A DNA stretch of 64,000 nt, from assembly GCA_017643365.1 (NCBI GenBank), contig JAEPNO010000005.1, positions 62,001 through 126,000 on the forward strand. The letters run 5' to 3'. The DNA comes from Balneolaceae bacterium. Lineage in GTDB: Bacteria > Bacteroidota > Rhodothermia > Balneolales > Balneolaceae. This document shows positions 41,876 to 57,448 of the stretch, in pieces. The notes beneath the pieces were generated by a model. The model searched no databases. It was not told where the DNA came from and saw only the letters and a list, made by a program, of their open reading frames with translations. Both the position numbers and the translations under genes were made by a program. Every line of letters starts with the position of its first letter. The first letter of the stretch is position 1.

Positions 41876-44800
41876 TTAGAAAGTTTTGCGGCGAGTACCA
41901 TTGATTGGAGTTAAGGAAGTTTCGTTACCCGAAGGTGTAACTACGGTAATGCTAATCGATAGGTCGGCGGGTTCGCTAGAATCGTCATCAATATCTCTTA
42001 TCGAGAAAGTGAATTCTGTAGAACCAGGTCCTGGAAAGATATAATTACCTAGAGTAAGATTAACATCTCCGGTTAATTCAATTCCGGTACCAGCGTCAAC
42101 AGTAATCGTGGTTCCTGCCGCCATTGGGTTACCATTTAAATCGGTAACTGTGTATGTAAACGTATCTCCACCACCCGGTTGTAGATCAAACGTGGTTGGG
42201 TCTGCTGTGATAGTAGCTGAAGAGGTAGAGAATACTACGTTAACCGATTGTTCAATCAATTCGTTGTCTTTGTTTACCGTAGATGCAGTGATAGTAGCCA
42301 GACCGTCGCGTGGGAATGGAGTACCATCTACAGTTTCGGTATCACTTGGTCTACGAGCACCCGATATCAATTGAACCGAAGCAAAGCCTTGGTTATTGGT
42401 GTTACCCTGAGCTGAGCCTTCGATAATTCCACCTGTGGTGCTAAAATAAACTGCCGTACCCGGTTTAACCGGATTACTGAATTCATCACCAAGTATTGCT
42501 GTAATCTGGTTGGTATTCCCATTTATACTATAGCCCTCGAAGTTGTATTTATCCGGTGCAAGGCTAAAATGGTCTGCATCAGGAAAACCACCATGGATAG
42601 TAACAGCCACAGGCTGAGAGCGAATGGTTAAGCCGATATCTTCACGAACGATTTCTGCTTGAACCTGAACAACACCCGACTTGGTACCTGAGTAAAGATT
42701 GGTTGTAACTCTACCCGATGCATTTGTAGAACTGGTTTCCGGAAGTAAGCCTTCGCCACCGTCTGGACCAACCAAAATGCTGAAGTTTACATCAATTTGA
42801 TTATCAAGGTCTAGGTTTCTACCGGCACTATCTTGCACCTGGAATGTGAAGGTACTATTTACTGTACCACCGGTTCCTTGAATGTTTATCACGTCCTCTG
42901 ATACGCTACTTAGTATGATAGTAGCTGCACCGGAAGGAGGTCCGCTTACACCATCCTCAGTACTACTACCTCGTATTTCGTCGTAGGTGGTTGTAAAATT
43001 ACTCGGAGTCTCAACAGATATTGTAATAATAATCACGTCATCAGCTCCGCCAATATCTTCTACCGTGATTTCAAAATCTGTAGTTCCATCACCGGCATCC
43101 ATATCGTTTCCTAATACCACAAAGTCATCACCGGTAATATTTACTGAACCTTCAGCAGTTGCTCGGATGAGTGTTCCCGTTGGCATTGGGCCACCGTTTT
43201 GATTTGTAACCGTAAATGGAATGGTAACTTGTCCGCCGGCATCCAAGCTGAATTCATTTACATTTGAATTGATGATAGCTTCACTGTCGCTACACGTAAA
43301 TTCTAAGTCTCTGGAAATTGGATTTCCATCTTGATCGGTTGTAGCAGCAGTTACTGTACCTCTGCCGGCATCGCCTGAACCGTCTAAACCAATACAACGT
43401 AACCACACTGGAGTACTGCCATTTATAAGAGCTTCTCCATCAGCATTAGTGAAAGCAGAACCTGCAACTGTACCTAAATCTGTAGAAAAATAAACAGCTG
43501 TACCTGGTTTAACGGCATTACCAAACTGATCAGTTAGGGTAACTGCTATCGTTTCTTCTTGCCCAACTTCAAGGTTTCTGTTCTCTAGAAAAACATCCAC
43601 ACCTTCCTCAACCGGGAAGCCTCCGAAGATGGTTAATGCTATCGGTTTGGAACGTATTGTAAGACCAACATCGTCGCGAACAATTTCAGCCTGAATTTGA
43701 ACTACACCGGCTGCATTGCCTGAATAGAAATTAGTACTGGCTCTACCGGATGCATCAGTCGACACTGTTTCGGGTAGTAATCCTTCGCCGCCGCCCGGAC
43801 CAGATAGTACGCTAAAATTAACCGTTACTTGATTGTTGATATCTACGCTACGTCCGGATGAATCCTGTACCTGAAAGGTAAGAACCGAGTTCACAATTCC
43901 ACCGGTTTCACTGATATTCAATTCCGTTTCTGATATTGAATCAAGAATTATAGCGGCGGCACCTTCTGATGGGCCGGAGATCTCGCCACCGGATGAATTC
44001 CCTACGATATTAAATGTAGTGATGAAGCCGGAAGGGGAGGTTACAGTTACAGGAACTAGCAACTCGTTGGTTTGGCTTCCAAAATACTCTAAAACAAACT
44101 CAAACTCTGTTTTACCAGGGCCTGCGGAGGTAGCATTTGGAATAGCCACAGCCGTATTTCCTGTTAAATCATAACTGGCATCGTTATCTATAACACGAAG
44201 TTGAGTTCCTTGTGCCATTGGGCGACCAGAAACATCGGTTACAGTAACTGTAAAGCTTTGAGTTCCGCCCGGCTCAACAGCAAAAGTAGGAGGACTAACT
44301 ACAATTAATGCTTCACTATTCGAGCATACAACATCTAAATTTTGGGTAATCTGTTGGTTATTTTCGTCAACGGTAGTTGCAGTAATTACACCTGATCCGA
44401 AGTTTCCATCACACCAAAAACGCACAGTAACTTCACCGTCTTGATTACTTTGATTGTCTTGAGAGCCTTCGATGGACCCGATTGAAGTTGTAAAGTAAAC
44501 CGCAGTTCCCGGCTTTACAGGGTTATTAAATCGATCTACAAGTTTAGCTGTGATTTCGGTTTCCTGAGAAGAACTGGATTCGATATTGGTTCGATCTGAG
44601 GTTAAGTAAAAACCATCTTGAGTCGGAAATCCACCATGAATTGTTATGGCAACCGGTGAGGATTGAATGGTTAAATTTACATCTTCGCGTATAATTTCAG
44701 CTTGAATCTGAACAACCCCGGCTAAGTTTCCGGCAAATAAACTTGAAGTAGCTCTACCGGCTGCATTTGTTCTAACTGAAGTAGGAAGAATTCCTTCGCC

Positions 44801-45394
44801 GCCTCCAGGACCGGAAACTATAGAAAAGTTTACTTCTACCGCATTGTTAAGATCTAAATTACGTCCGGCTGAATCCTGTACTTGAAAAGTAAATTCAGTA
44901 CTTATAATACCTCCGGTTTCTTTAATATTTAGGGATGATTGACCAATAGATACTAATTCAATAGCTGCCGCTCCTTCCGATGGCCCTGAAACTTGTTGTC
45001 CACCATCGTCACCGCCATCGCCACCATCGCCGGTATCAACAGGGGTAAGTTCGATGGGTTGATCTAAGGCAATTTCCAATCCACCTGATACGGGGACATT
45101 CAACGTATTATCAACAAATCCGGTTTTCTTGATTGAGAGAGTGAGCGTGGCGGATTCAGTAACGGTTAATTCAGTAAAACTGAAGGCACCATTTTCGTCG
45201 GTTACTTTAGCAGTTCCTGAAAACTCATCAGGTGCTGTAATTTCAACGATGGCTTGGTTGATAGGGTCGCCGGAAAGTTCGTTAATAACGTTGCCAGAAA
45301 TGGTTACATCATTATTTGTACTCGTTGTTTGGCATCCAAGGTACACCGAAAATGCAATGATGATAAGGACCGAAAAAGGGGCTAATCTTTTCAT
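41876..45394 (-). CDS. large Ig-repeat lipoprotein (three invasin-type repeats)
   Basis: A 1172-residue lipoprotein (lipobox LGC, Cys21). Residues 28-115 are a carboxypeptidase-regulatory-like domain (VTISGNVINELSGDP). After a Gly/Asp linker (DTGDGGDGGDDGG) come three long repeats beginning SGPSEGAAAI or SGPPSGAATI at residues 136, 473 and 817, each about 340 residues. They contain invasin/intimin Big_1-type Ig folds (for example NPVKPGTAVYFTTSIGSIEG and NPMAAGTTITVD). It probably forms a long rod on the cell surface, for adhesion or matrix structure. The high repeat similarity makes recombination between units likely. Confidence 0.85.
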   Translation of the reverse strand: MKRLAPFSVLIIIAFSVYLGCQTTSTNNDVTISGNVINELSGDPINQAIVEITAPDEFSGTAKVTDENGAFSFTELTVTESATLTLSIKKTGFVDNTLNVPVSGGLEIALDQPIELTPVDTGDGGDGGDDGGQQVSGPSEGAAAIELVSIGQSSLNIKETGGIISTEFTFQVQDSAGRNLDLNNAVEVNFSIVSGPGGGEGILPTSVRTNAAGRATSSLFAGNLAGVVQIQAEIIREDVNLTIQSSPVAITIHGGFPTQDGFYLTSDRTNIESSSSQETEITAKLVDRFNNPVKPGTAVYFTTSIGSIEGSQDNQSNQDGEVTVRFWCDGNFGSGVITATTVDENNQQITQNLDVVCSNSEALIVVSPPTFAVEPGGTQSFTVTVTDVSGRPMAQGTQLRVIDNDASYDLTGNTAVAIPNATSAGPGKTEFEFVLEYFGSQTNELLVPVTVTSPSGFITTFNIVGNSSGGEISGPSEGAAAIILDSISETELNISETGGIVNSVLTFQVQDSSGRSVDINNQVTVNFSVLSGPGGGEGLLPETVSTDASGRASTNFYSGNAAGVVQIQAEIVRDDVGLTIRSKPIALTIFGGFPVEEGVDVFLENRNLEVGQEETIAVTLTDQFGNAVKPGTAVYFSTDLGTVAGSAFTNADGEALINGSTPVWLRCIGLDGSGDAGRGTVTAATTDQDGNPISRDLEFTCSDSEAIINSNVNEFSLDAGGQVTIPFTVTNQNGGPMPTGTLIRATAEGSVNITGDDFVVLGNDMDAGDGTTDFEITVEDIGGADDVIIITISVETPSNFTTTYDEIRGSSTEDGVSGPPSGAATIILSSVSEDVINIQGTGGTVNSTFTFQVQDSAGRNLDLDNQIDVNFSILVGPDGGEGLLPETSSTNASGRVTTNLYSGTKSGVVQVQAEIVREDIGLTIRSQPVAVTIHGGFPDADHFSLAPDKYNFEGYSINGNTNQITAILGDEFSNPVKPGTAVYFSTTGGIIEGSAQGNTNNQGFASVQLISGARRPSDTETVDGTPFPRDGLATITASTVNKDNELIEQSVNVVFSTSSATITADPTTFDLQPGGGDTFTYTVTDLNGNPMAAGTTITVDAGTGIELTGDVNLTLGNYIFPGPGSTEFTFSIRDIDDDSSEPADLSISITVVTPSGNETSLTPINGTRRKTF

Positions 45395-46954: not shown

Positions 46955-47362
46955 ATGGGTCAACAACAATTACTTCTCGTAATTCTAGTAACAATCATCG
47001 TTGGTATCGCAACAGTAGTTGCAATTAATACCTTCTCAAGTGCTGCTGATTCAGCAAACTTAGATGCAGTTCGTCAAGATCTTGCACAAATTGCTTCTTC
47101 AGCTCAAGCATATTACATCAAGCCAACCATGCTTGGTGGTGGTGGTAACGATTGGAGTTCTGTAACTTTCAATAACATTACCTTCCCATCAGATAGTATC
47201 TTTAACAGTGGTTTATCTGCTGCGAATACTAACGGTTCTTATGAAATGACCACCAGAGCATCTGGACAGCTTATTGTTACTGCTACACCAACAAGTGGTG
47301 CCGTAACTAGTATAGTTGCTACAATTACACCTGACAACATGACTCAGGCTACTAACGAGTAA
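46955..47362 (+). CDS. pilin-like filament subunit 1
   Basis: A 135-residue protein beginning MGQQQLLLVILVTIIVG, a single N-terminal hydrophobic helix followed by an amphipathic helix (SANLDAVRQDLAQIASSAQ), a YYIKPTMLGGGG motif and a beta-rich Ser/Thr end. This architecture (N-terminal helix, then globular head) is that of type IV pilins and pseudopilins. However there is no basic leader and no Glu5; cleavage could only occur after Gly2. It starts the cluster, has a good ribosome binding site and is followed by a terminator, so it is likely the abundant subunit. Confidence 0.75.
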   Translation: MGQQQLLLVILVTIIVGIATVVAINTFSSAADSANLDAVRQDLAQIASSAQAYYIKPTMLGGGGNDWSSVTFNNITFPSDSIFNSGLSAANTNGSYEMTTRASGQLIVTATPTSGAVTSIVATITPDNMTQATNE

Positions 47363-47385
47363 TCGTTATTATAAAATTTCAATAA

Positions 47386-47417
47386 AAGCTTCTTCAACTA
47401 TTGAAGGAGCTTTTTTT
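47386..47417 (+). terminator. terminator between the two pilin-like genes
   Basis: AAGCTTCTTCAA and TTGAAGGAGCTT form a 12-bp stem with one G-U pair and a 3-nt loop, followed by seven T. Readthrough would feed the nine downstream genes at a lower level than pilin 1. Confidence 0.9.
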
Positions 47418-47426
47418 ATTTAAACT

Positions 47427-47795
47427 ATGGGACAGCAACAACTCATGCTACTTATTCTTGTAACCGTCATTGTTGGTATAATGACTGTGGTTGCAATTAC
47501 TTTGTTTAGCAATTCAAGAGATGAGTCGATTAAAGACATTATTAGACAAGATGTGATGGAGGCCGCAACCTTAGGACAAATGTATTATAAAAAACATCCA
47601 ATGCTTGGTGGTGGTGGAGGGACTTTCAACGATATTACATTAAACGATATTCAATTAGATTCGACCACTGCAATTAATACTTTCGAAATCTCGGAAACTT
47701 CAGGCAGTTATTTTAAATTGCTGGCAACTCCAACATTAGGAGAGATCGATCCTTTTACTGCTGTTGTTACAGTAGATAATGTAGTTTGGGAATAA
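47427..47795 (+). CDS. pilin-like filament subunit 2
   Basis: A 122-residue paralogue of the preceding protein: MGQQQLMLLILVTVIVGI, then SIKDIIRQDVMEAATLGQMYYKKHPMLGGGGG and FNDITLNDIQL. The first 20 residues and the YYxKxPMLGGGG motif are shared, while the C-terminal heads differ. It is probably a minor subunit or an initiator of the same filament. As in subunit 1, no classical prepilin cleavage motif or Glu5 is present. The start lies just after the terminator with no clear ribosome binding site. Confidence 0.72.
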   Translation: MGQQQLMLLILVTVIVGIMTVVAITLFSNSRDESIKDIIRQDVMEAATLGQMYYKKHPMLGGGGGTFNDITLNDIQLDSTTAINTFEISETSGSYFKLLATPTLGEIDPFTAVVTVDNVVWE

Positions 47796-47815
47796 TCATC
47801 TAACTAGGCAATGAT

Positions 47816-49156
47816 ATGGCACAATTTCGATTAAAAGCAGTATCTCAAAAAGGGAAAGTTGTACAAACTGAATTTGAGGCTAACAATAAAAAAGATGCTC
47901 AAATCAAAGTTGATAGATTATCAAAGACAAATGGGTTACGGATACAATCTCTTGATCAAAAATTTACCTTTGTATATAAAGTAAAAAAAGCCGGTAGTAA
48001 AAAGCCGATAACCGGTGAACAGGAAGCATATACAAAAGAAGAACTTGAACGCGCTTTAATTAAGCTTGGCTATCAAGTTGTTAGTGTAAATAAAAAGTTT
48101 TTCAATTTTGCCGGTGGTGTACCAATGAGTGAAGTAGTTTCATTCATTAGTTTATCTGCCGATCTTTTAAAACAGCAACTTACCTTTGATGAAATCCTCA
48201 ATCTTTTAATTGAAGATACCACCAATAAGAGGATGAAAGAGGTAATTAAAGAAATTCAGAAAGATCTTAAAGACGGTAAAGAAGGTTCGCAAGTGTATGG
48301 GAAGCATGAACCTATATTTGGAAAATTTGCCGCTTACATGTTAAGTGTGGCATCCACATCGGGTAACATGGCGTTAGTGTTTGAGAGTACTGCCAAGTTC
48401 CTTGAACGAGATGCAGAGTTTAAGAAGAATCTAAAGAGATCGTTAATGATGCCGGCGGTAACAGTGTTTGCTGTAATAGGCGTTGTTCTTTTTTATGTAG
48501 GATATATTTTTCCATCTACCGCCGAGTTGTTTGTAGAAATGGGAATCGATTTACCTCCAATGACTCAATCTACTCTCGATTTAAGTTATTGGTTACGTGA
48601 TAATTGGGTGCTACTATTAATATCCTTTATCGCTCCAATTGTAACCTTTATTTGGTTTGTTAATACCAAAAAAGGAAAATTACTTGTTGATCGAGTAATA
48701 ATTAGGATACCCGTTATTGGCGATTTGCTCCATAAAACAAGTATCGAAATTTTTTCACGAGTTTTTTACACACTTTACAGTGGCTCAGGGCAGAATATCG
48801 AGGTGATTAGGGTTGCATCAGAAGCCTGTAGAAATACCTACATGGAAAAGCAGATAAAGGAAGTAGCCATCAAAAAGATGTTGAAAGACGGTGCTGGGCT
48901 AATTGAAAGTATTGAAGAAACCGGAGTATTTACTCAAACTGCAATAAGTAGGTTTAGATTAGGTGCCGAATCGGGTGCTTTACGAGAGAATGCAAAGCAA
49001 CTTGCCGAGTATTATGAAATTCAAACCACTTATAAGATGCAATCCGTAATTGATACTATAAATTTGTTTATAAATTTGTTTATCATGATCTCACTAATTG
49101 GTATTACCGTTGTATCATCAGAATCGGCTGTTATTAAACCTAACTCAGGCATCTAA
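47816..49156 (+). CDS. PilC/GspF-type inner membrane platform protein
   Basis: A 446-residue protein of the T2SF family. Residues 1-105 are a basic cytoplasmic region containing two related ubiquitin-like modules (KKDAQIKVDRLSKTNGLRI and TKEELERALIKLGYQVVSV). Two T2SF domains follow: about 110-225 and 315-430, with membrane helices near 212-235, 260-282 and 415-435. Conserved segments are SASLISL-like FISLSADLLKQQLTFDEIL and SGSGQNIEVI. PilC/GspF links the assembly ATPase to the filament in the inner membrane. It precedes the ATPase gene, as in known systems. Confidence 0.93.
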   Translation: MAQFRLKAVSQKGKVVQTEFEANNKKDAQIKVDRLSKTNGLRIQSLDQKFTFVYKVKKAGSKKPITGEQEAYTKEELERALIKLGYQVVSVNKKFFNFAGGVPMSEVVSFISLSADLLKQQLTFDEILNLLIEDTTNKRMKEVIKEIQKDLKDGKEGSQVYGKHEPIFGKFAAYMLSVASTSGNMALVFESTAKFLERDAEFKKNLKRSLMMPAVTVFAVIGVVLFYVGYIFPSTAELFVEMGIDLPPMTQSTLDLSYWLRDNWVLLLISFIAPIVTFIWFVNTKKGKLLVDRVIIRIPVIGDLLHKTSIEIFSRVFYTLYSGSGQNIEVIRVASEACRNTYMEKQIKEVAIKKMLKDGAGLIESIEETGVFTQTAISRFRLGAESGALRENAKQLAEYYEIQTTYKMQSVIDTINLFINLFIMISLIGITVVSSESAVIKPNSGI

Positions 49157-49176
49157 ACTCATTTACAATACTCCTA

Positions 49177-50952
49177 ATGGGTAAAATCAATATAAGACGA
49201 CATATTGGCGATATCCTTGTACGCAAAGGAGTAGTATCGGAAGAGCAGCTTACTCAAGCTCTACAAATCTTAGAGGAAGAACCTGCCGGGAGTTCTCGAA
49301 GGCTTGGGCAAATTCTTTTCCAGGATATAGGCCTGAATCGGCATTTGATTATGCGCGAAATCTCAAAAGTGTATGCTTTTAGAGAGATTTTAGCCGATGT
49401 CGAAATCGTTCCCGACGATGTCATAGACACGATTAAGAATTATGTAGAGAAATTACCAGAAGATATTATTGATGAACTGGTTCATCATAAAGCGCTGCCA
49501 TATCAAGTTTCTCGTGCGGAGATTACAATTGCTGCCGCCGACCCATCTGATCCCAATTTACAGACCATAATTAACAAGCTTAATTTTAAACAGACAGAGC
49601 TTGTTTACTGTAATTATGACCTTGTTGAGCAGATTCTGGGTAAAGTTTACGAACGGAAAAATGAGTTTCTAGATCTTCTTGAAGAGATCGATTATGAAGA
49701 AACTAACATTGAAACCGACGAAGAGAATATTGACGAAGAAGAGATTGATGCAGAAATCAATCAAAGTATGCTCAACTCTTTGGTTGAAGGGATGTTGGTT
49801 GAATCTGTTCGACAGGGTGTAAGTGATTTGCATATCATTCCAAGCGGTCCAACTTCTACCGATATTCGTTTTAGGATTGATGGTAAGCTTCAACTTTGGT
49901 ATCAACAAAAGAATGTTAAGCCCGAAGCAATTTCAGCTGTAATTAAGGATAAAACACGAAATGTTGATCGCTTTGAGCGTGATTCCTCTCAGGATGGTTT
50001 CATACAGCGTCAGATTGATGGATTCAACATTCGATATCGTGTTTCCATCATGCCAATTGTGGGTAATCAATACGATAGGAAATTTGAATCTATCGTAATT
50101 CGTATTCTTGATGATAGGAAAGTAATCCGCGATTTAGATCTTCTTGGCTTACAAAAGATCGCTAAAGATAATTTTGTTAAATCCATTCAACAGCCGTCTG
50201 GTATTGTAATTATTACAGGACCAACCGGTAGTGGTAAATCAACCACGTTAGTTGCAGCACTGTATTATGTAATCGATCCCACTAAAAATGTGTTAACTGT
50301 CGAGGAACCGGTAGAATACATAATCGATGGAGCTCGGCAATTGAAGATCTCCACATCTATGACCTTCGACCAGAGTATCCGCGGTATTCTTCGTCATGAT
50401 CCCGATATTGTATTGGTAGGGGAGATTCGTGACTTGAAAACCGCTGAAATTGCTATCAAATTAGCGAATACCGGTCACTTAACGTTCTCAACATTGCACA
50501 CTAACGATGCGCCAAGTGCAGTTTCGCGTTTATTTAAGATGGGTGTAGAACCATTCCTTATTGCAAATGCGGTAAACTTGGTAATGGCTCAACGTTTGAT
50601 AAGAAGGTTGTGTAAAGACTGTAAAGAACAATTTGACCCACACCCAGAAATAGCTCGTGGTTTAGGCTTTACTGATGATGAAATTGAAACTACAACCTTT
50701 TATAAGGCAGTAGGTTGCGATGTTTGTGGTGGTACTGGATACAAAGGAAGATCAGCAATTCACGAGGCATTATTCTTCTCGAAAGAAATCAAACAAATGG
50801 TTCTTGATGCCGGTGGCGATATTGATGAAAATGCGATCAAAAATTTGGCTGTAAGTCAGGGTATGTTAACCTTGCGTGGCTCTGGTCGCGAGCGAATAAA
50901 AGAGGGTATAACAACCATCGAAGAAATTATTGCATCAACCATAGAGGATTGA
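49177..50952 (+). CDS. PilB/GspE-type assembly ATPase
   Basis: A 591-residue T2SE ATPase. Residues 1-150 are an MshEN-like N-domain (RRHIGDILVRKGVVSEEQLTQAL), which in other proteins binds c-di-GMP. A Glu/Asp-rich linker (about 160-195) follows. The motor has Walker A ITGPTGSGKSTTL, Asp box EEPVEYII, Walker B DPDIVLVGEIRD and His box HLTFSTLHTND. A zinc tetra-cysteine site is visible (LCKDCKEQF and CDVCGG). It powers filament extension at the inner membrane. Confidence 0.95.
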   Translation: MGKINIRRHIGDILVRKGVVSEEQLTQALQILEEEPAGSSRRLGQILFQDIGLNRHLIMREISKVYAFREILADVEIVPDDVIDTIKNYVEKLPEDIIDELVHHKALPYQVSRAEITIAAADPSDPNLQTIINKLNFKQTELVYCNYDLVEQILGKVYERKNEFLDLLEEIDYEETNIETDEENIDEEEIDAEINQSMLNSLVEGMLVESVRQGVSDLHIIPSGPTSTDIRFRIDGKLQLWYQQKNVKPEAISAVIKDKTRNVDRFERDSSQDGFIQRQIDGFNIRYRVSIMPIVGNQYDRKFESIVIRILDDRKVIRDLDLLGLQKIAKDNFVKSIQQPSGIVIITGPTGSGKSTTLVAALYYVIDPTKNVLTVEEPVEYIIDGARQLKISTSMTFDQSIRGILRHDPDIVLVGEIRDLKTAEIAIKLANTGHLTFSTLHTNDAPSAVSRLFKMGVEPFLIANAVNLVMAQRLIRRLCKDCKEQFDPHPEIARGLGFTDDEIETTTFYKAVGCDVCGGTGYKGRSAIHEALFFSKEIKQMVLDAGGDIDENAIKNLAVSQGMLTLRGSGRERIKEGITTIEEIIASTIED

Positions 50953-51021
50953 TCAATATTTAGTTTTTTTATTGATGATTTTAACACATATTTAATAGCA
51001 TGTGCAAAATAGTGAGGTTTT

Positions 51022-51525
51022 ATGAATTCAGGTAACGAGTCATCGAAAGATTGGATGGCAGATTACATAAAAAAGTTTCTAAAAGAGCCACCATTACTCT
51101 TGAAGAACTTTCATTATGAAGATGTATTGGAGTTTCTACAATTAGGAATTGAAGAAAAATTTCAGGCTGATGACATCATATTAAATGAATCAGAATACGT
51201 TAATTCGGCTTATTTAGTGGCAGAAGGGAAAGTTGCAATTTGGAAAGACAACATTCAGTTGGCTACACTTTCGGAAGGGAATTTTCTTGGAGAGGCATTC
51301 TTATTTAGTAAAAATAGCCGAATGGCTAAAGTTACTGCCGAAGGCGAGTGTATTCTTCTTAGATATGAACGTTATGAAGCTTTAAACTTTTTTAGAAAAA
51401 AGCCTGAAAAATTATTCAATATTTTCACAAAAAATATCATCGAAATTCAACAGAGAAAAATAAGTAATATGAATATTCAATTATTGAATCTTAAAAAGCG
51501 ATTATTGAATGATTCAAATTGGTAA
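51022..51525 (+). CDS. stand-alone cyclic nucleotide-binding domain protein
   Basis: A 167-residue protein consisting of one cNMP-binding beta-barrel (residues 35-130: DIILNESEYVNSAYLVAEGKVAIW, GNFLGEAFLFSKNSRMAKV with the phosphate-cassette GEAFLFS) and two flanking helices. There is no helix-turn-helix DNA-binding domain. A conserved Arg for cyclic phosphate is not obvious; the cassette reads SKNSRMAKV. Placed between the PilB-like and PilT-like ATPases, it may regulate filament motors rather than transcription. That role is inference. Confidence 0.82.
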   Translation: MNSGNESSKDWMADYIKKFLKEPPLLLKNFHYEDVLEFLQLGIEEKFQADDIILNESEYVNSAYLVAEGKVAIWKDNIQLATLSEGNFLGEAFLFSKNSRMAKVTAEGECILLRYERYEALNFFRKKPEKLFNIFTKNIIEIQQRKISNMNIQLLNLKKRLLNDSNW

Positions 51526-51623
51526 ATCTGATTTATACATTTAACCAATCCTTATTATTATTTTTTTCGTAACAATAGGTAAGTAAGATTATCTATTGAT
51601 TCCATCAAAAAGATGGATATATC

Positions 51624-52865
51624 ATGGCGGCAATTGATTTAGACAGAATATCGGGGCTTATAAAGCCGATTGTAGATCGCATTCCTAAAACTGCGCGAGG
51701 GCCAGAGTTACATCGAAGAATCGGTGAACTAATCGAAAATGCCGATATTAGCATGCGCGTTGACCTGAAAGAAGCAATGGATTCTTTTTTGGTTAATATG
51801 ATCAAAATTAGTGCTTCTGATATTGATTTGGGAGGGCCAGGTTGTAATGGTAAAATTTGGTATCGAATTTTTGGGGATAAAAATCCTCTCAAGCTTTCAA
51901 AAAAATTAGAATATTTAGAAACCGATGTGTTGCTTCATAATCTTCTCTTAGCATCACAACGAAAGACTTTACTAGAAAAGAAAAACCTCGATTTTTCCTA
52001 TTCAATAAACCTTGGGCGAGGCAAAAGTCAGCGATTTAGAGCCGACATGTATTTTGATTTAGATCATCTCGGGCTGAATATGAGAAAAATTGATAACACC
52101 ATACGTCCGTTTAAAACGCTTGGTGTTCATGCTGAGGTTGCAAAAGCAGTTAGTTTAAAATATCTCAAATATGGGTTAACGCTAATTACCGGTATCACAG
52201 GTTCAGGTAAATCTTCCACACTCGATACTATTATTGATGCAAATAACAGAACGGTTGATGCTCATATCGTAATTATAGCCTCTCCGGTAGAGCTTATCCA
52301 TGAGCCAATACGATGTGTAGTTCGCCATCGTGAAGTAGGCAGTGATGTGCATTCGTTTAAAGAAGGAGCTATTCAAGCTTTGCGCCAAGATCCGGATATT
52401 ATTGTAATTGGTGAGCTCAGAGACCCAGAAACAATAATGTCTGCGCTTGAAATCACTGATTCCGGGCATAAAACATTTGGTACGCTTCATACATCCTCTG
52501 CAATAGAAAGTATCGAACGTATTTTAGGTGAAATGCCTACTGAAGAACAAAATAGAGTTAGAGCAAGGCTGGCAGACGTTTTAACGTGTGTAATCAGCCA
52601 AAAGCTTGTGCCTAGTTTAGACGGAAAAAGAGTATTAGCCAAAGAAGTACTTATCGCAAATTCATCGGTAAAAGCAGCTATACGAAACAATAACATAGGC
52701 GAAATTTACCAGATGCTGATGGAAGGAAAAGAGCGTGGTATGAATACTATGGAACAGGACTTGAAAAGATTATTCGATGAAGGTAAGATTTCTAAAGAAT
52801 CTGCATTAAATTATGCGAATAATAAATCTAAGATGGTTCAACTTTTAAGTGAGGTTAGCTACTAA
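51624..52865 (+). CDS. PilT-like ATPase
   Basis: A 413-residue retraction-type ATPase. After an N-domain of about 180 residues come Walker A GITGSGKSSTL, Walker B DPDIIVIGELRDPETI, His box GHKTFGTLHTSSAIESIERI and the C-terminal GMNTMEQDLKRLF of PilT/PilU. Two deviations are seen: the Walker A loop starts GIT rather than GPT, and the Asp box reads IASPVELIH instead of the usual EDPIE. PilT enzymes depolymerise pili or modify extension. The altered Asp box hints at reduced activity, as in PilU-type helpers. Confidence 0.9.
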   Translation: MAAIDLDRISGLIKPIVDRIPKTARGPELHRRIGELIENADISMRVDLKEAMDSFLVNMIKISASDIDLGGPGCNGKIWYRIFGDKNPLKLSKKLEYLETDVLLHNLLLASQRKTLLEKKNLDFSYSINLGRGKSQRFRADMYFDLDHLGLNMRKIDNTIRPFKTLGVHAEVAKAVSLKYLKYGLTLITGITGSGKSSTLDTIIDANNRTVDAHIVIIASPVELIHEPIRCVVRHREVGSDVHSFKEGAIQALRQDPDIIVIGELRDPETIMSALEITDSGHKTFGTLHTSSAIESIERILGEMPTEEQNRVRARLADVLTCVISQKLVPSLDGKRVLAKEVLIANSSVKAAIRNNNIGEIYQMLMEGKERGMNTMEQDLKRLFDEGKISKESALNYANNKSKMVQLLSEVSY

Positions 52866-52869
52866 TTAA

Positions 52870-54639
52870 GTGAAATCAGGTAAACAATATACCGGAATTG
52901 TTCTTGAAGCTGATAGCCTCAAATTTGCTGTTATCCAGATTAAGGATAAAAAAGTACAGCTCGTTAAAATCGACCGGGTTTCACTAGTAGAAAAACTAGA
53001 TTCACAAGCGCCAAGTGCTGATTTAGATGATGTATTTGGGGAATCTAGTGATGATGTATTTGATTTAGATAGTGCATTAAATGATAACGGTGGCGGTTCA
53101 GAAATTGATTTAGATGACGATTTATTAGGTGGTCTTGATGATGATATCTTAAGCGATCTGGACGATGATATTCTTGGGGAAATCGGTGACGATATTGATC
53201 TTGAAATAGATGAACTCGAGAAAGGAGATGAAATTGTAGACGTTGATGAGGTAGATGAGACAGAAGGTCCTATTTCAAACGAAATCCAAGTATTCAATTT
53301 TCTATCCGAGCTTGATCCTAAAAGAGTTGATGTTGGCTTAAACATTCCTGCCGGTACTGCAATATTCCAAGTACTTAAAGATGTTGACTTTAACGAGGTA
53401 AAAAAGAAAGATCTTAAAGTAATTATTGATGATCGCTTAGAAGCACTTTATGGCGATCCTAAAGATCAAGACTTCTATTCTTACGGTGTTCGTGATGACG
53501 GTGCATTGGTGCTTTCAAGTATCGATGAACAACCAATGATGCTTTCACTAATCGATAGAGTTGCTACGCTTTATCGTGGTAAAATTTTTATAAGTGAGAT
53601 TTTACCGGATGAATCGATTTTATTGGCAATGGTTAAAGCCAATTATGAACTCGATGACGAAAAAATCACCTGTGTTCTACAGTTTTCTGAGCTTAATTGC
53701 CGTGTGATTTTCATGAAGGGGGATAAGCTTTGGTTAGTATCTCCAATTATTACCGAAGGTGTTCGCTCACGTAAATTTTTGAACACGGTATTCTCGAAAA
53801 TCCTTTTCCAGTTAGATACCGGTGAAGTTCCAAATCTGGATCGATTGATCATTTGTAATAACTCGCTAGGCGAGGAAGGTATATCGTTCTTTAAAGAGCG
53901 TTTTCCTGATGTTGAAGTTTCAGAGTTTGAATTCGCTGAAGAGTACTTCGATCCGCAAGAGCATACGCTTGATTCAATTGCTCCCTTTACCACGGCAATT
54001 GGTACTGCTTGGGCTGCATCAAAATTCGAAAAGGATGTATTTTCAGGAATTTCATTCTTGCCTAAATATGTAGTCGATCGGCAGAAAATTTTTAAGCTGC
54101 AGTGGCATGGTTTTGTTTTACTATTGTTGGTGTTCTTTTCGATTCCCGGAATTAACCTTCTGTGGCAACAACATTTTGAGGATATAAACAGATTAGAATC
54201 AGAAATATCATTGGTTGACACACAATTGCAATCTTACGCCCCAACGGTAAATAACTATAATCGAATTAGCAGTCAGTTAAGTCAAATTCAGGATAACCTA
54301 GTGTTGATGAATACGCTTGCTGAAAATTCAATCACATGGTCGGTTAATTTGCACAGGATTAACTCTGGAATTGATAATATTGGTGGTGTTTGGCTTACAA
54401 ATATCACTCCGGGTGATGAACCTAATACGTTAGAAATTCAAGGTATTGCTCGGTACAGAGATCGAGTAGGCGCCGTTGCTGAGCTATTTGCTGATGCAAC
54501 TCTTTTGGATGTAACCAGAGCTGAAATTCGAGAAGTTGAAGTATATAACTTCAGTTATTATGTAAATAAAATTGTAGCAAATACAGATGTTTACACTCCT
54601 CAAAACCTACAAGGTATGGGAGACCTAATCGGCAATTAA
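52870..54639 (+). CDS. PilM-PilN fusion protein (GspL-like) with acidic insert
   Basis: A 589-residue protein that appears to join two assembly platform proteins. Residues 1-45 and 136-400 form a PilM/GspL-like actin-type fold (YTGIVLEADSLKFAVIQI; later SLIDRVATLYRGKIFISEIL). Between them, residues 50-135, is an Asp-rich stretch with repeated LDDDIL units. A membrane helix (about 412-431), a coiled coil (432-475) and a ferredoxin-like PilN domain follow (IGGVWLTNITPGDEPN). In classic type IV pili PilM and PilN are separate; here the fusion resembles GspL. Translation starts at a GTG. Confidence 0.78.
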   Translation: MKSGKQYTGIVLEADSLKFAVIQIKDKKVQLVKIDRVSLVEKLDSQAPSADLDDVFGESSDDVFDLDSALNDNGGGSEIDLDDDLLGGLDDDILSDLDDDILGEIGDDIDLEIDELEKGDEIVDVDEVDETEGPISNEIQVFNFLSELDPKRVDVGLNIPAGTAIFQVLKDVDFNEVKKKDLKVIIDDRLEALYGDPKDQDFYSYGVRDDGALVLSSIDEQPMMLSLIDRVATLYRGKIFISEILPDESILLAMVKANYELDDEKITCVLQFSELNCRVIFMKGDKLWLVSPIITEGVRSRKFLNTVFSKILFQLDTGEVPNLDRLIICNNSLGEEGISFFKERFPDVEVSEFEFAEEYFDPQEHTLDSIAPFTTAIGTAWAASKFEKDVFSGISFLPKYVVDRQKIFKLQWHGFVLLLLVFFSIPGINLLWQQHFEDINRLESEISLVDTQLQSYAPTVNNYNRISSQLSQIQDNLVLMNTLAENSITWSVNLHRINSGIDNIGGVWLTNITPGDEPNTLEIQGIARYRDRVGAVAELFADATLLDVTRAEIREVEVYNFSYYVNKIVANTDVYTPQNLQGMGDLIGN

Positions 54640-55502
54640 TGTCATACGCACTACGAAATACCCTAATTCTATTAACCACACTCTCATTAATTGTAGGGTT
54701 GGGATTCGCATATTCTAAATTCTTTTTAGAATCGAAAGTTGAAGACTTGCAAAATTCACTTGTCGAAAAACAAAACGATTTAGTATCAAAAGAAGATATC
54801 AATACCCAATTTACTGAGCTTAACGAGCGCTATATTGCAGCTCTTGAAGTAATTTCGAATTACGACAAAATTCTTTTTAGTTCTAATAAACCGGATGATG
54901 TATTCGATTTTTTGAATAGAGTAAACCAAGAAGGTGGTTTCCAAATTTATTACGATTACATTTTTTCCGATTCTTTACCAAGTGCTGAATATGGCATCCT
55001 TCAATCATCAATTGCCGGATATAGTAAATACGATGCCTTAACTGACTTTATAAATCGAATTGAACACTCACAGTTATTAAATAAAGTGAGTAACCTCACA
55101 ATTTCACCTGCCCGACAAGATGATGATTTAAGAATGGTTAATTTCTCGTTTGATCTTGAAAGTTATTACGAAAAAACCAATCTATTCGACTCATTAGGTA
55201 GAAATTACAGTATAAATCTGGATGAAGATATCTCAACCTATAACCCACTTTATCCGTTAATACAACCATCTGTTCAAGCCAACATCAATGGTTTAATTAA
55301 CATCCAAAGTTCTAAACTAATTGGTATGACAGCCAATCGTGTATTTGTAAGAGATCAAACCGGAAGGATCGCATCACTTAAAGAAGGTGATCAAGTTTAT
55401 CTTGGTAGCTTAGTATCAATTGATTTACAAAATAAAAAAGCTACCTTTAATTTAGACGTAGGCGGCATAGAAGAAGTAGTTACCCTGGAGGTAGTTCGAT
55501 GA
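54639..55502 (+). CDS. PilO-like protein with PilP-like C-terminus
   Basis: A 287-residue single-pass protein: membrane helix at 7-25, coiled coil at 30-75, a PilO-type ferredoxin-like domain at about 85-180 (FDFLNRVNQEGGFQI; ALTDFINRIEHS), and a C-terminal beta domain at about 205-287 (LIGMTANRVFVRDQTGRIASLKEGDQVYLG) that resembles the homology region of PilP or GspC. PilN-PilO form the alignment ring and PilP contacts the secretin, so this protein could link both. It overlaps the upstream gene by 1 nt and the secretin gene by 4 nt. Confidence 0.75.
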   Translation: MSYALRNTLILLTTLSLIVGLGFAYSKFFLESKVEDLQNSLVEKQNDLVSKEDINTQFTELNERYIAALEVISNYDKILFSSNKPDDVFDFLNRVNQEGGFQIYYDYIFSDSLPSAEYGILQSSIAGYSKYDALTDFINRIEHSQLLNKVSNLTISPARQDDDLRMVNFSFDLESYYEKTNLFDSLGRNYSINLDEDISTYNPLYPLIQPSVQANINGLINIQSSKLIGMTANRVFVRDQTGRIASLKEGDQVYLGSLVSIDLQNKKATFNLDVGGIEEVVTLEVVR

Positions 55503-57448
55503 AAAACAATAAATTATATCATTTACAGAAGTTTAAGATTGCTTTGCTAGCAATGTTAACTGTGGTTTGTGTGCCTTATTTGGCAGTTGCTCAAGATGAA
55601 TATCCGCGTGAATATACCAACCCAGATGAAATTGTAGCCTTTGACCGTAGTACAAGCTATACAGAAGCGATTGAGGTAATTAACCAATTCTATCAGGAGT
55701 ACCGGAACAAGTTTATTATAGATCAAACAGGAACTACAGGTGCAATTGGTGTTGCTTTACCGGCAATGCACTGGCAAGACGCTCTAGAATTTATTCTACG
55801 ATTAAAAAACTTAACATTAGTTGAAGCTGATGATTATGTAGAGATTGTTACTTTAGCATCGGTTACACCACAGGAAGAGCGACAATCAGCTCAAGCTCAA
55901 GAAGGCGATATCAACCTTAGAACTCGCGAAATCAAAATCAATGCAACGTTTTTTGAAGGAAATAGAAGAGCTCTGCAAGAAATTGGTGTTGATTGGTCTA
56001 CACTAAGAGGAACCGTTCCAACAGAACTTAATGATATTGTTGGAGGTGAAGGTGCCGGAGGTGGAGAAGGACTTCCAAATACAGGCTTTTCAGATCAATT
56101 TGTTTCGATAAACTCATTTAATGCGGCAAATGTATCTCAAAACGTTTTTAATGCGCTCGTAAATTTGGGCCCATTTGGTGAAGGTGATAATGCAATAAGT
56201 GTGCAGGCTCTTTTTAATGCATTTGAAGCAGATAACCTGGGTGAAGTTCTTGCCACACCATTTACAAAAGTACTTGATGGACAAGAAGGTAGAGTACAGG
56301 TTGGACAGGATTTCTCGATTAAGCAGCGAGATATAGCCGGAAATGTAACCGATCAATTTTTTAGTACTGGAACCATTTTAACTGTAACACCTACTGTAAT
56401 TGAAATAAATGATACTTCATTTATTCACTTAGACATTGAAGTCGAACGATCATCTGCACAGCCGGATGCGGTAAGTACAATCATCAACAAACAGCAAGCT
56501 TCAACACAAGCACTTTTGCTGGATGGAGAGGCAACTACCATTGCCGGTTTATATCGAACCGAGGAATCTAACGTTCGCCGCGGAATACCAATTTTAAAAG
56601 ATTTACCGCCATGGTTTTTCGGATTACGTTACCTGTTCGGTTATAACTCAAACGATTATCTTGAAAACGAGCTGATCATTATTGTTCAAGCTTCACTCGA
56701 AAAAACGGTGAGAGAACGTGCTAATGCTCAATTTGCAAATAAACAGAGCATTCTAGATTCTGAACGTGATTACATGCGCAGTAATTTAGAAGCAGTATTT
56801 AACAATAATTTGTTGACTACTCAGGCTGATATGCGTCAAAACTTAGATACGTTTGTATCGAACGATGATGAAGCAACAACAACTTCCACTGAACCTGAAA
56901 ATTCTAATTCTAATACTGTAGAAAATACCAACACAGAAGAAACAGATAATACAGGAATGGAAAATGAAGTAGCAGGAGATTCCGGTGAGACGGAAATGGA
57001 AACAACGGAAGAAACTCCGGATAATCCATCTACAGAAGTAAAACCTGTTGCTGAAGTTGAACTTACTCCAGAGCAGCAACAATTGGCCGATGAACTAAGT
57101 ATGCCGGTTGAAAACCCAGAATTGATGGTATTGGTACCTCGTGCATTTAGCTTAAACGAGTATTTAGAACAACAGCAAAATGGTGAAATTGAGCCGGAAA
57201 TTATTGAATCAGATGATCACAAATTCTTTGTAATCGGAGGCTCATTTATAGTTCGAAATAATGCGAATCGTTTCAATCAAACTTTAATGGATGAAGGCTT
57301 CGAAACCCGAATACTATTCCACCCGGAGTCTAGATTCAATTTTGTAGCCTATCAAGGGTTCGCCACATTTGAAGAAGCAGTTGCTTATCTAATGTCGATC
57401 AGAGACAATGTAAACTCTGATGCGTGGTTGTTTACGCTTCCCAAATAA
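55499..57448 (+). CDS. PilQ/GspD secretin with C-terminal SPOR domain
   Basis: A 649-residue outer-membrane secretin. Signal peptide residues 1-32 (cut after AVAQ), one STN/N0-like domain at 45-125, and a secretin core at about 145-400 with VGQDFSIKQ, GTILTVTPTVIE and RRGIPILKDLPPWF. Then a Thr/Glu-rich linker (455-535) leads to a SPOR-type domain at 572-649 (FFVIGGSFIVRNNANRF... DEGFETRILF). SPOR domains bind denuded peptidoglycan; fused to a secretin this would anchor or localise the channel at the cell wall. It has fewer N domains than GspD. It ends the cluster. Confidence 0.88.
   Translation: MKNNKLYHLQKFKIALLAMLTVVCVPYLAVAQDEYPREYTNPDEIVAFDRSTSYTEAIEVINQFYQEYRNKFIIDQTGTTGAIGVALPAMHWQDALEFILRLKNLTLVEADDYVEIVTLASVTPQEERQSAQAQEGDINLRTREIKINATFFEGNRRALQEIGVDWSTLRGTVPTELNDIVGGEGAGGGEGLPNTGFSDQFVSINSFNAANVSQNVFNALVNLGPFGEGDNAISVQALFNAFEADNLGEVLATPFTKVLDGQEGRVQVGQDFSIKQRDIAGNVTDQFFSTGTILTVTPTVIEINDTSFIHLDIEVERSSAQPDAVSTIINKQQASTQALLLDGEATTIAGLYRTEESNVRRGIPILKDLPPWFFGLRYLFGYNSNDYLENELIIIVQASLEKTVRERANAQFANKQSILDSERDYMRSNLEAVFNNNLLTTQADMRQNLDTFVSNDDEATTTSTEPENSNSNTVENTNTEETDNTGMENEVAGDSGETEMETTEETPDNPSTEVKPVAEVELTPEQQQLADELSMPVENPELMVLVPRAFSLNEYLEQQQNGEIEPEIIESDDHKFFVIGGSFIVRNNANRFNQTLMDEGFETRILFHPESRFNFVAYQGFATFEEAVAYLMSIRDNVNSDAWLFTLPK

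Follow-up and report, generated by a model that had tools for sequence, protein, structure and literature searches.

Nine genes on the + strand at 46955-57448 of the window, the whole 64,000-nucleotide stretch of Balneolaceae DNA that was analysed, are tightly packed and encode a T4aP-like machine (Table 1). An earlier note had described a type IV filament machine of nine co-directional genes here; all nine ORFs were recovered with the same boundaries, and Pfam and NCBIfam models identify PilC, PilB, the cNMP-binding protein, PilT and the secretin.

Table 1. Features of the pilus locus in the window, followed by enlarged PilB proteins encoded at other loci of the class
Feature	Coordinates	Strand	Best match
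pilA1, major pilin, 135 aa, leaderless, starts MGQQQLLLVILVTIIVGIATVVA	46955..47362	+	
Terminator-like hairpin, 14-bp stem and T tail, 3' of pilA1	47384..47414	+	
pilA2, second leaderless pilin, 122 aa, starts MGQQQLMLLILVTVIVG	47427..47795	+	
PilC-type inner-membrane platform protein, T2SSF x2	47816..49156	+	Pfam T2SSF 6.5e-29
PilB extension ATPase, MshEN-like N-terminus, two CxxC motifs	49177..50952	+	TIGR02538 430.9 bits
Lone cyclic-nucleotide-binding domain protein	51022..51525	+	PF00027 2.6e-12
PilT retraction ATPase	51624..52865	+	TIGR01420 8.4e-93
PilM-PilN fusion, GTG start: actin-like PilM part, TM, PilN part	52870..54639	+	
PilO	54639..55502	+	M. xanthus PilO 1.8e-4
PilQ-type secretin with family-specific C-terminal extension, weak SPOR-like end	55499..57448	+	PF00263 2.1e-27
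Large PilB	L077 4813-8298		
Large PilB	L080 4841-8224		
Large PilB	L092 7811-11077		
Large PilB	L108 4637-8017		

PilB and PilC score below the NCBIfam equivalog cut-offs and are therefore divergent. PilT, with 311.3 bits against the TIGR01420 cut-off of 319.1, retains the AIRN-type motif as AIRNNNIG and groups with reference PilTs in a tree. The proposed PilM-PilN fusion is borne out: the family profile matches M. xanthus PilN over profile positions 381-530 (1.1e-14), and the predicted fold of the PilM part, from a model of moderate confidence (mean pLDDT 73.4), best matches P. aeruginosa PilM:PilN (E 4.2e-11). For PilO and the secretin, the main assignments hold, but those made for their C-termini fare less well. 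The last ~95 aa of PilO are conserved, but a search for a PilP-like match in them found nothing. The secretin has M. xanthus PilQ as its closest solved structure (2.3e-26), but the SPOR domain attributed to it is weak (E 0.094), with 2 of 17 family members matching SPOR (best 8.5e-7).

Two features of the locus bear on regulation. The N-terminus of PilB is MshEN-like (NF053729, 2.4e-7, under the curated cut-off) and possibly provides a c-di-GMP site, and the cNMP-binding protein, whose gene is kept in loci of the order, is likely a regulator; together they suggest that the pilus may be subject to second-messenger control. Hairpins like the one downstream of pilA1 follow the first pilin gene in 12 of 24 loci scored and later pilin genes in 1 of 11, against a background of 11 in 960 random stretches. 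The pilA1 hairpin probably lets pilA1 be produced in excess of the remaining genes, and the pattern fits pilA1 being the major subunit.

Both pilins start with MGQQQ and enter the transmembrane helix at once, without a class III leader and without Glu5. The nearest upstream in-frame stop lies three codons from the ATG in pilA1 and one codon in pilA2, so that there is no space for a leader. Among 260 distinct relatives' pilins, gathered via the leaderless-pilin motif, an alternative upstream start is absent in 244 of 258, and the preceding in-frame stop is at a median distance of 4 codons; mis-annotation of the starts is thereby ruled out. Positions 2-14 are free of acidic and basic residues in all 256 major pilins scored, and in the same 256 position 2 is Gly or Ala, as the methionine aminopeptidase rule demands; Gly2 is almost invariant, and Gln comes next in most members. 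Pilins found independently of the motif, as profile hits or as neighbours of PilC, mostly have the same start; among the profile hits it is MGQQQ exactly in 62 of 75 from relatives and in 148 of 164 from the pattern-found loci. Variant starts in the leaderless system are few, namely MAQQQ, MGSQQ and MGNRE.

For pilA1, the view that the locus encodes pilin-like subunits is upheld by structure prediction. The AlphaFold model of pilA1 (pLDDT 95.2) combines a long N-terminal helix with a beta-sheet head, which is the pilin fold, and the top 13 rows of its VIA-align comparison are all type IV pilins, with Z from 9.5 down to 5.3. Foldseek alone returned no significant match for this model, and the GspG model reached only E 0.08 against pilA1.

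Most other families of the class have at least three genes between pilB and pilT. The minor-pilin homologues of the window's own genome are found on another contig as two triplets (L281, contig C11, 6139-10961), after which several small secreted proteins are encoded (up to 13702); one of these minor pilins matches DUF4900 (1.7e-8), and two of the small secreted proteins give weak DUF4402 matches. The three minor-pilin families are all leaderless. In two of them an acidic residue peaks at ORF position 6 (28/52 and 14/57); with loss of Met alone this becomes mature position 5, where ordinary pilins have Glu5. In one of the three, the W-like family, many members start with MN or MD, and a residue permissive for methionine aminopeptidase follows Met in 16 of 52. 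Methionine aminopeptidase would not cut MN or MD starts, and these members do not fit Met removal.

The genome containing the window is 99.8% complete and has no PF01478 (Peptidase_A24) match even at E<=10, nor any match to a lineage-specific A24 profile. The missing prepilin peptidase, regarded in the earlier note as an oddity of the locus, is thus missing genome-wide, and it goes together with the leaderless pilins, which that note had not noticed. In the class as a whole, PF01478 scores above cut-off in 16 of 216 genomes. Where only one PilC-like gene is present (125 genomes) A24 was never found, and where there are at least two (25 genomes) it was found in 14 (Fisher p 2.5e-13, only indicative as the genomes are related); every one of the 14 genomes with PilC and A24 has a second PilC-like gene. 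In the A24 genomes that were opened, this second gene sits in a T2SS-like system with ordinary prepilins, for example EEG|FTLPELLIVLVIIG. The second systems are an internal control: peptidase and leader are present together and missing together. Two class genomes carry A24 without a PilC match (G107, contig C42, and G124, contig C192).

An insensitive profile hiding the peptidase was ruled out with the lineage-specific profile, trained on A24 sequences from the class, which gives at least 71 bits in 15 genomes and at most 22.4 bits in the rest, recovering the same set minus one fragmentary case. Six single-contig genomes of the class have the motif without A24 over the cut-off (G031, G040, G041, G045, G061 and G083), as do three genomes with the motif locus on a chromosome record (CP053447.1, CP070637.1 and CP070707.1). 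Among 50 motif-bearing genomes from the named collection, A24 is missing in 35, the three with a chromosome record among them, and a T2SSF protein was found in all but one.

In the window's own genome, the start of another contig (L023, contig C50, 2113-5349) encodes three pseudopilins with canonical sites (for example EDG|ASLVETL and KDG|YTVVEIL) together with GspF, immediately preceded at the contig start by what looks by eye like an RHS-repeat fragment. The pseudopilin and GspF genes are either a remnant of a second canonical system or the portion of one at the contig edge; neither GspE nor A24 to go with it was found anywhere in the genome. The lost part could have carried a peptidase outside the assembly. 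A genome of the same genus (G002), with one PilC and without A24, is free of this contig-edge problem.

Of the 216 class genomes, 146 contain the leaderless-pilin DNA motif (7 control hits in all) and 150 the PilC; contrary to what had been supposed, such machines are by no means uncommon in this branch. Across the phylum the motif was found in 127 of 394 genomes, and the reversed-pattern control gave 0, by which a chance motif was ruled out. When one genome per species was scanned, the named hits among the matches listed all belong to the FCB group, a few others being titled merely 'bacterium'; the taxa among these listed matches are Rhodothermia/Balneolales, Ignavibacteria, Kryptonia, KSB1, Calditrichota, Neomarinimicrobiota, Zixiibacteriota and Cloacimonadota. 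The pattern has second hits in three genomes (G024, G026 and G027; L100-L102), away from recognised pilin genes. The suggestion of a distinct lineage, its genes kept together in one locus, is upheld. In trees with a small reference set of plasmid-borne T4P/T2SS proteins and second systems, PilC (100/100; 23 PilC proteins from several phyla, stem 3.29), PilT (100/100) and PilB (94/84) form clades of their own. The long stem and some long-branched references leave the exact placement of PilC open.

With the T4aP of Myxococcus xanthus and Pseudomonas aeruginosa the system shares PilB, PilC, PilT, PilM-PilN-PilO, a PilQ-type secretin, the pilin fold and minor pilins. It differs from them in that PilM and PilN are fused, PilP is not recognised, PilC, PilB and PilT fall in clades apart from the references used, the locus pilins carry no class III signal, the major pilins lack Glu5, and the genome has no PilD (Peptidase_A24). 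Class III leaders are 6-26 aa long and end in Gly, followed by a hydrophobic tract with Glu5, and, with the prepilin peptidases, these signals are described as distinguishing and near-universal features of type IV filaments; the same review treats the peptidase as a conserved filament protein, and Nanoarchaeota were the one group in its survey where none could be detected (PMC4471445). Loci without a prepilin peptidase gene are also known for the MSHA pilus, but MSH genomes always have another system with a peptidase (PMC6668835), whereas the single-system genomes described here have none.

A T2SS would be distinguished by the lack of PilT and by GspG-type pseudopilins with class III signals; here PilT is present and the pilins are leaderless. 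That the locus nevertheless encodes a T2SS-like protein-secretion system, with a pseudopilus that never extends, is in our judgement decidedly unlikely, even though the best model for PilC is GspF (156.8 bits vs 145.5 for the PilC model) and a T2SS is already known in Bacteroidetes (PMC5553014). The top models of PilB and of the secretin are PilB and PilQ, PilT occurs in almost every complete cluster examined, and some relatives hold a separate T2SS-like system of a different clade, with canonical pseudopilins and A24. The Bacteroidetes example, from Cytophaga hutchinsonii (chu_3191-3202), belongs to the same phylum and, going by the components listed in PMC5553014, shares homologues of the ATPase, platform, secretin and pilin; that list has a Peptidase_A24 (CHU_3197) and not PilT, and the system resembles the second system of some relatives (L073, L096, L098 and L099) and not the locus in the window. 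It has been found to cluster with T4aP, apart from other T2SS (Denise et al., PMC6668835). The 'secretion machine' alternative offered in the earlier note is, in the same way, less likely because of the PilT retraction ATPase.

Two further alternatives concern the peptidase itself. The nearly invariant Gly2 recalls Gly-1 of class III signals, and an unrelated, unrecognised peptidase might cut after it, removing Met-Gly as a minimal leader; the Gln at position 3 of most members would be compatible with pyroglutamate formation at the resulting Gln1, and the enzyme would be a non-homologous replacement of PilD. We regard this as unlikely. A leader of two residues is far under the published 6-26 aa range, MAQQQ variants occur, the window's cluster has no conserved gene left without an assignment, the methionine aminopeptidase rule is kept at position 2 throughout the major pilins scored, and the acidic residue of two minor-pilin families would reach position 5 only through the loss of Met and nothing more. 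It is very improbable that a true prepilin peptidase is present but was overlooked, being too divergent or lying in assembly gaps. The genomes are mostly drafts, and a contig break lies near the second system of the window's own genome; against this stand the single-contig and chromosome-record genomes with the motif and no A24, the clean gap left by the lineage-trained profile, and pilins that have no leader to cut.

We think it likely that the locus specifies a retractable T4aP-like pilus from a separate lineage found widely in the FCB group, with pilins that are essentially mature as translated. At the level of sequence and predicted structure, this reading draws on the gene set, the leaderless pilins, the absence of A24 where a genome has one system only, the folds of the pilin and of PilM, and the distinct clades. 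SRP/Sec would insert the hydrophobic helix at the N-terminus in N-in topology, and methionine aminopeptidase would probably take off the initiator Met alone, given Gly or Ala at pilin position 2, so that the pilin would begin with an unmethylated GQQQ... The acid register of the minor pilins and the Gly or Ala at position 2 would together make methionine aminopeptidase the most likely, perhaps the sole, processing enzyme, and the PilD step would be missing because nothing needs cutting off. The mature N-terminus of pilins is usually (Me)Phe1...Glu5; as the major pilins here have no Glu5, subunit docking must differ. PilB and PilC would polymerise the subunits on the PilM-PilN/PilO platform, the three leaderless minor-pilin families, encoded away from the locus in the window's genome, would probably start or cap the fibre, and the fibre would exit through the PilQ-type secretin and be retracted by PilT. 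We also think it fairly likely that all filament subunits of this separate major FCB lineage are made mature, with removal of the initiator Met as the only processing and with neither a prepilin peptidase nor N-methylation.

If true, leader processing, N-methylation and Glu5 would all be dispensable for building type IV fibres, and the lineage would offer a natural system that separates pilin maturation from assembly. It would also help to explain why the pili of FCB genomes are easily missed, the published detection models looking for the peptidase (PMC6668835). A search of the open-access literature turned up nothing on leaderless type IV pilins, on peptidase-independent pili or on methionine aminopeptidase in connection with type IV pilins; an earlier description may exist outside it. 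As far as function can be judged from gene content, PilB together with PilT, the secretin and the minor pilins suggest a pilus that extends and retracts, for which twitching, adhesion and DNA uptake would be equally open roles, DNA uptake being possible because ComEC is encoded in the genome.

In some families of the class PilB is enlarged or fused, with 1,088-1,161 aa compared to ~590 (Table 1). The C-terminal extension of the secretin (window 56700-57448) occurs in most members of the family to which the window belongs (L034, L035, L039 and L042), and the secretins of other families of the order that were examined have ~391-415 aa. Beside the pilus locus, on the - strand at 41876-45394 of the window, lies a gene for a large lipoprotein-like surface protein with Big_1/invasin D3 repeats.
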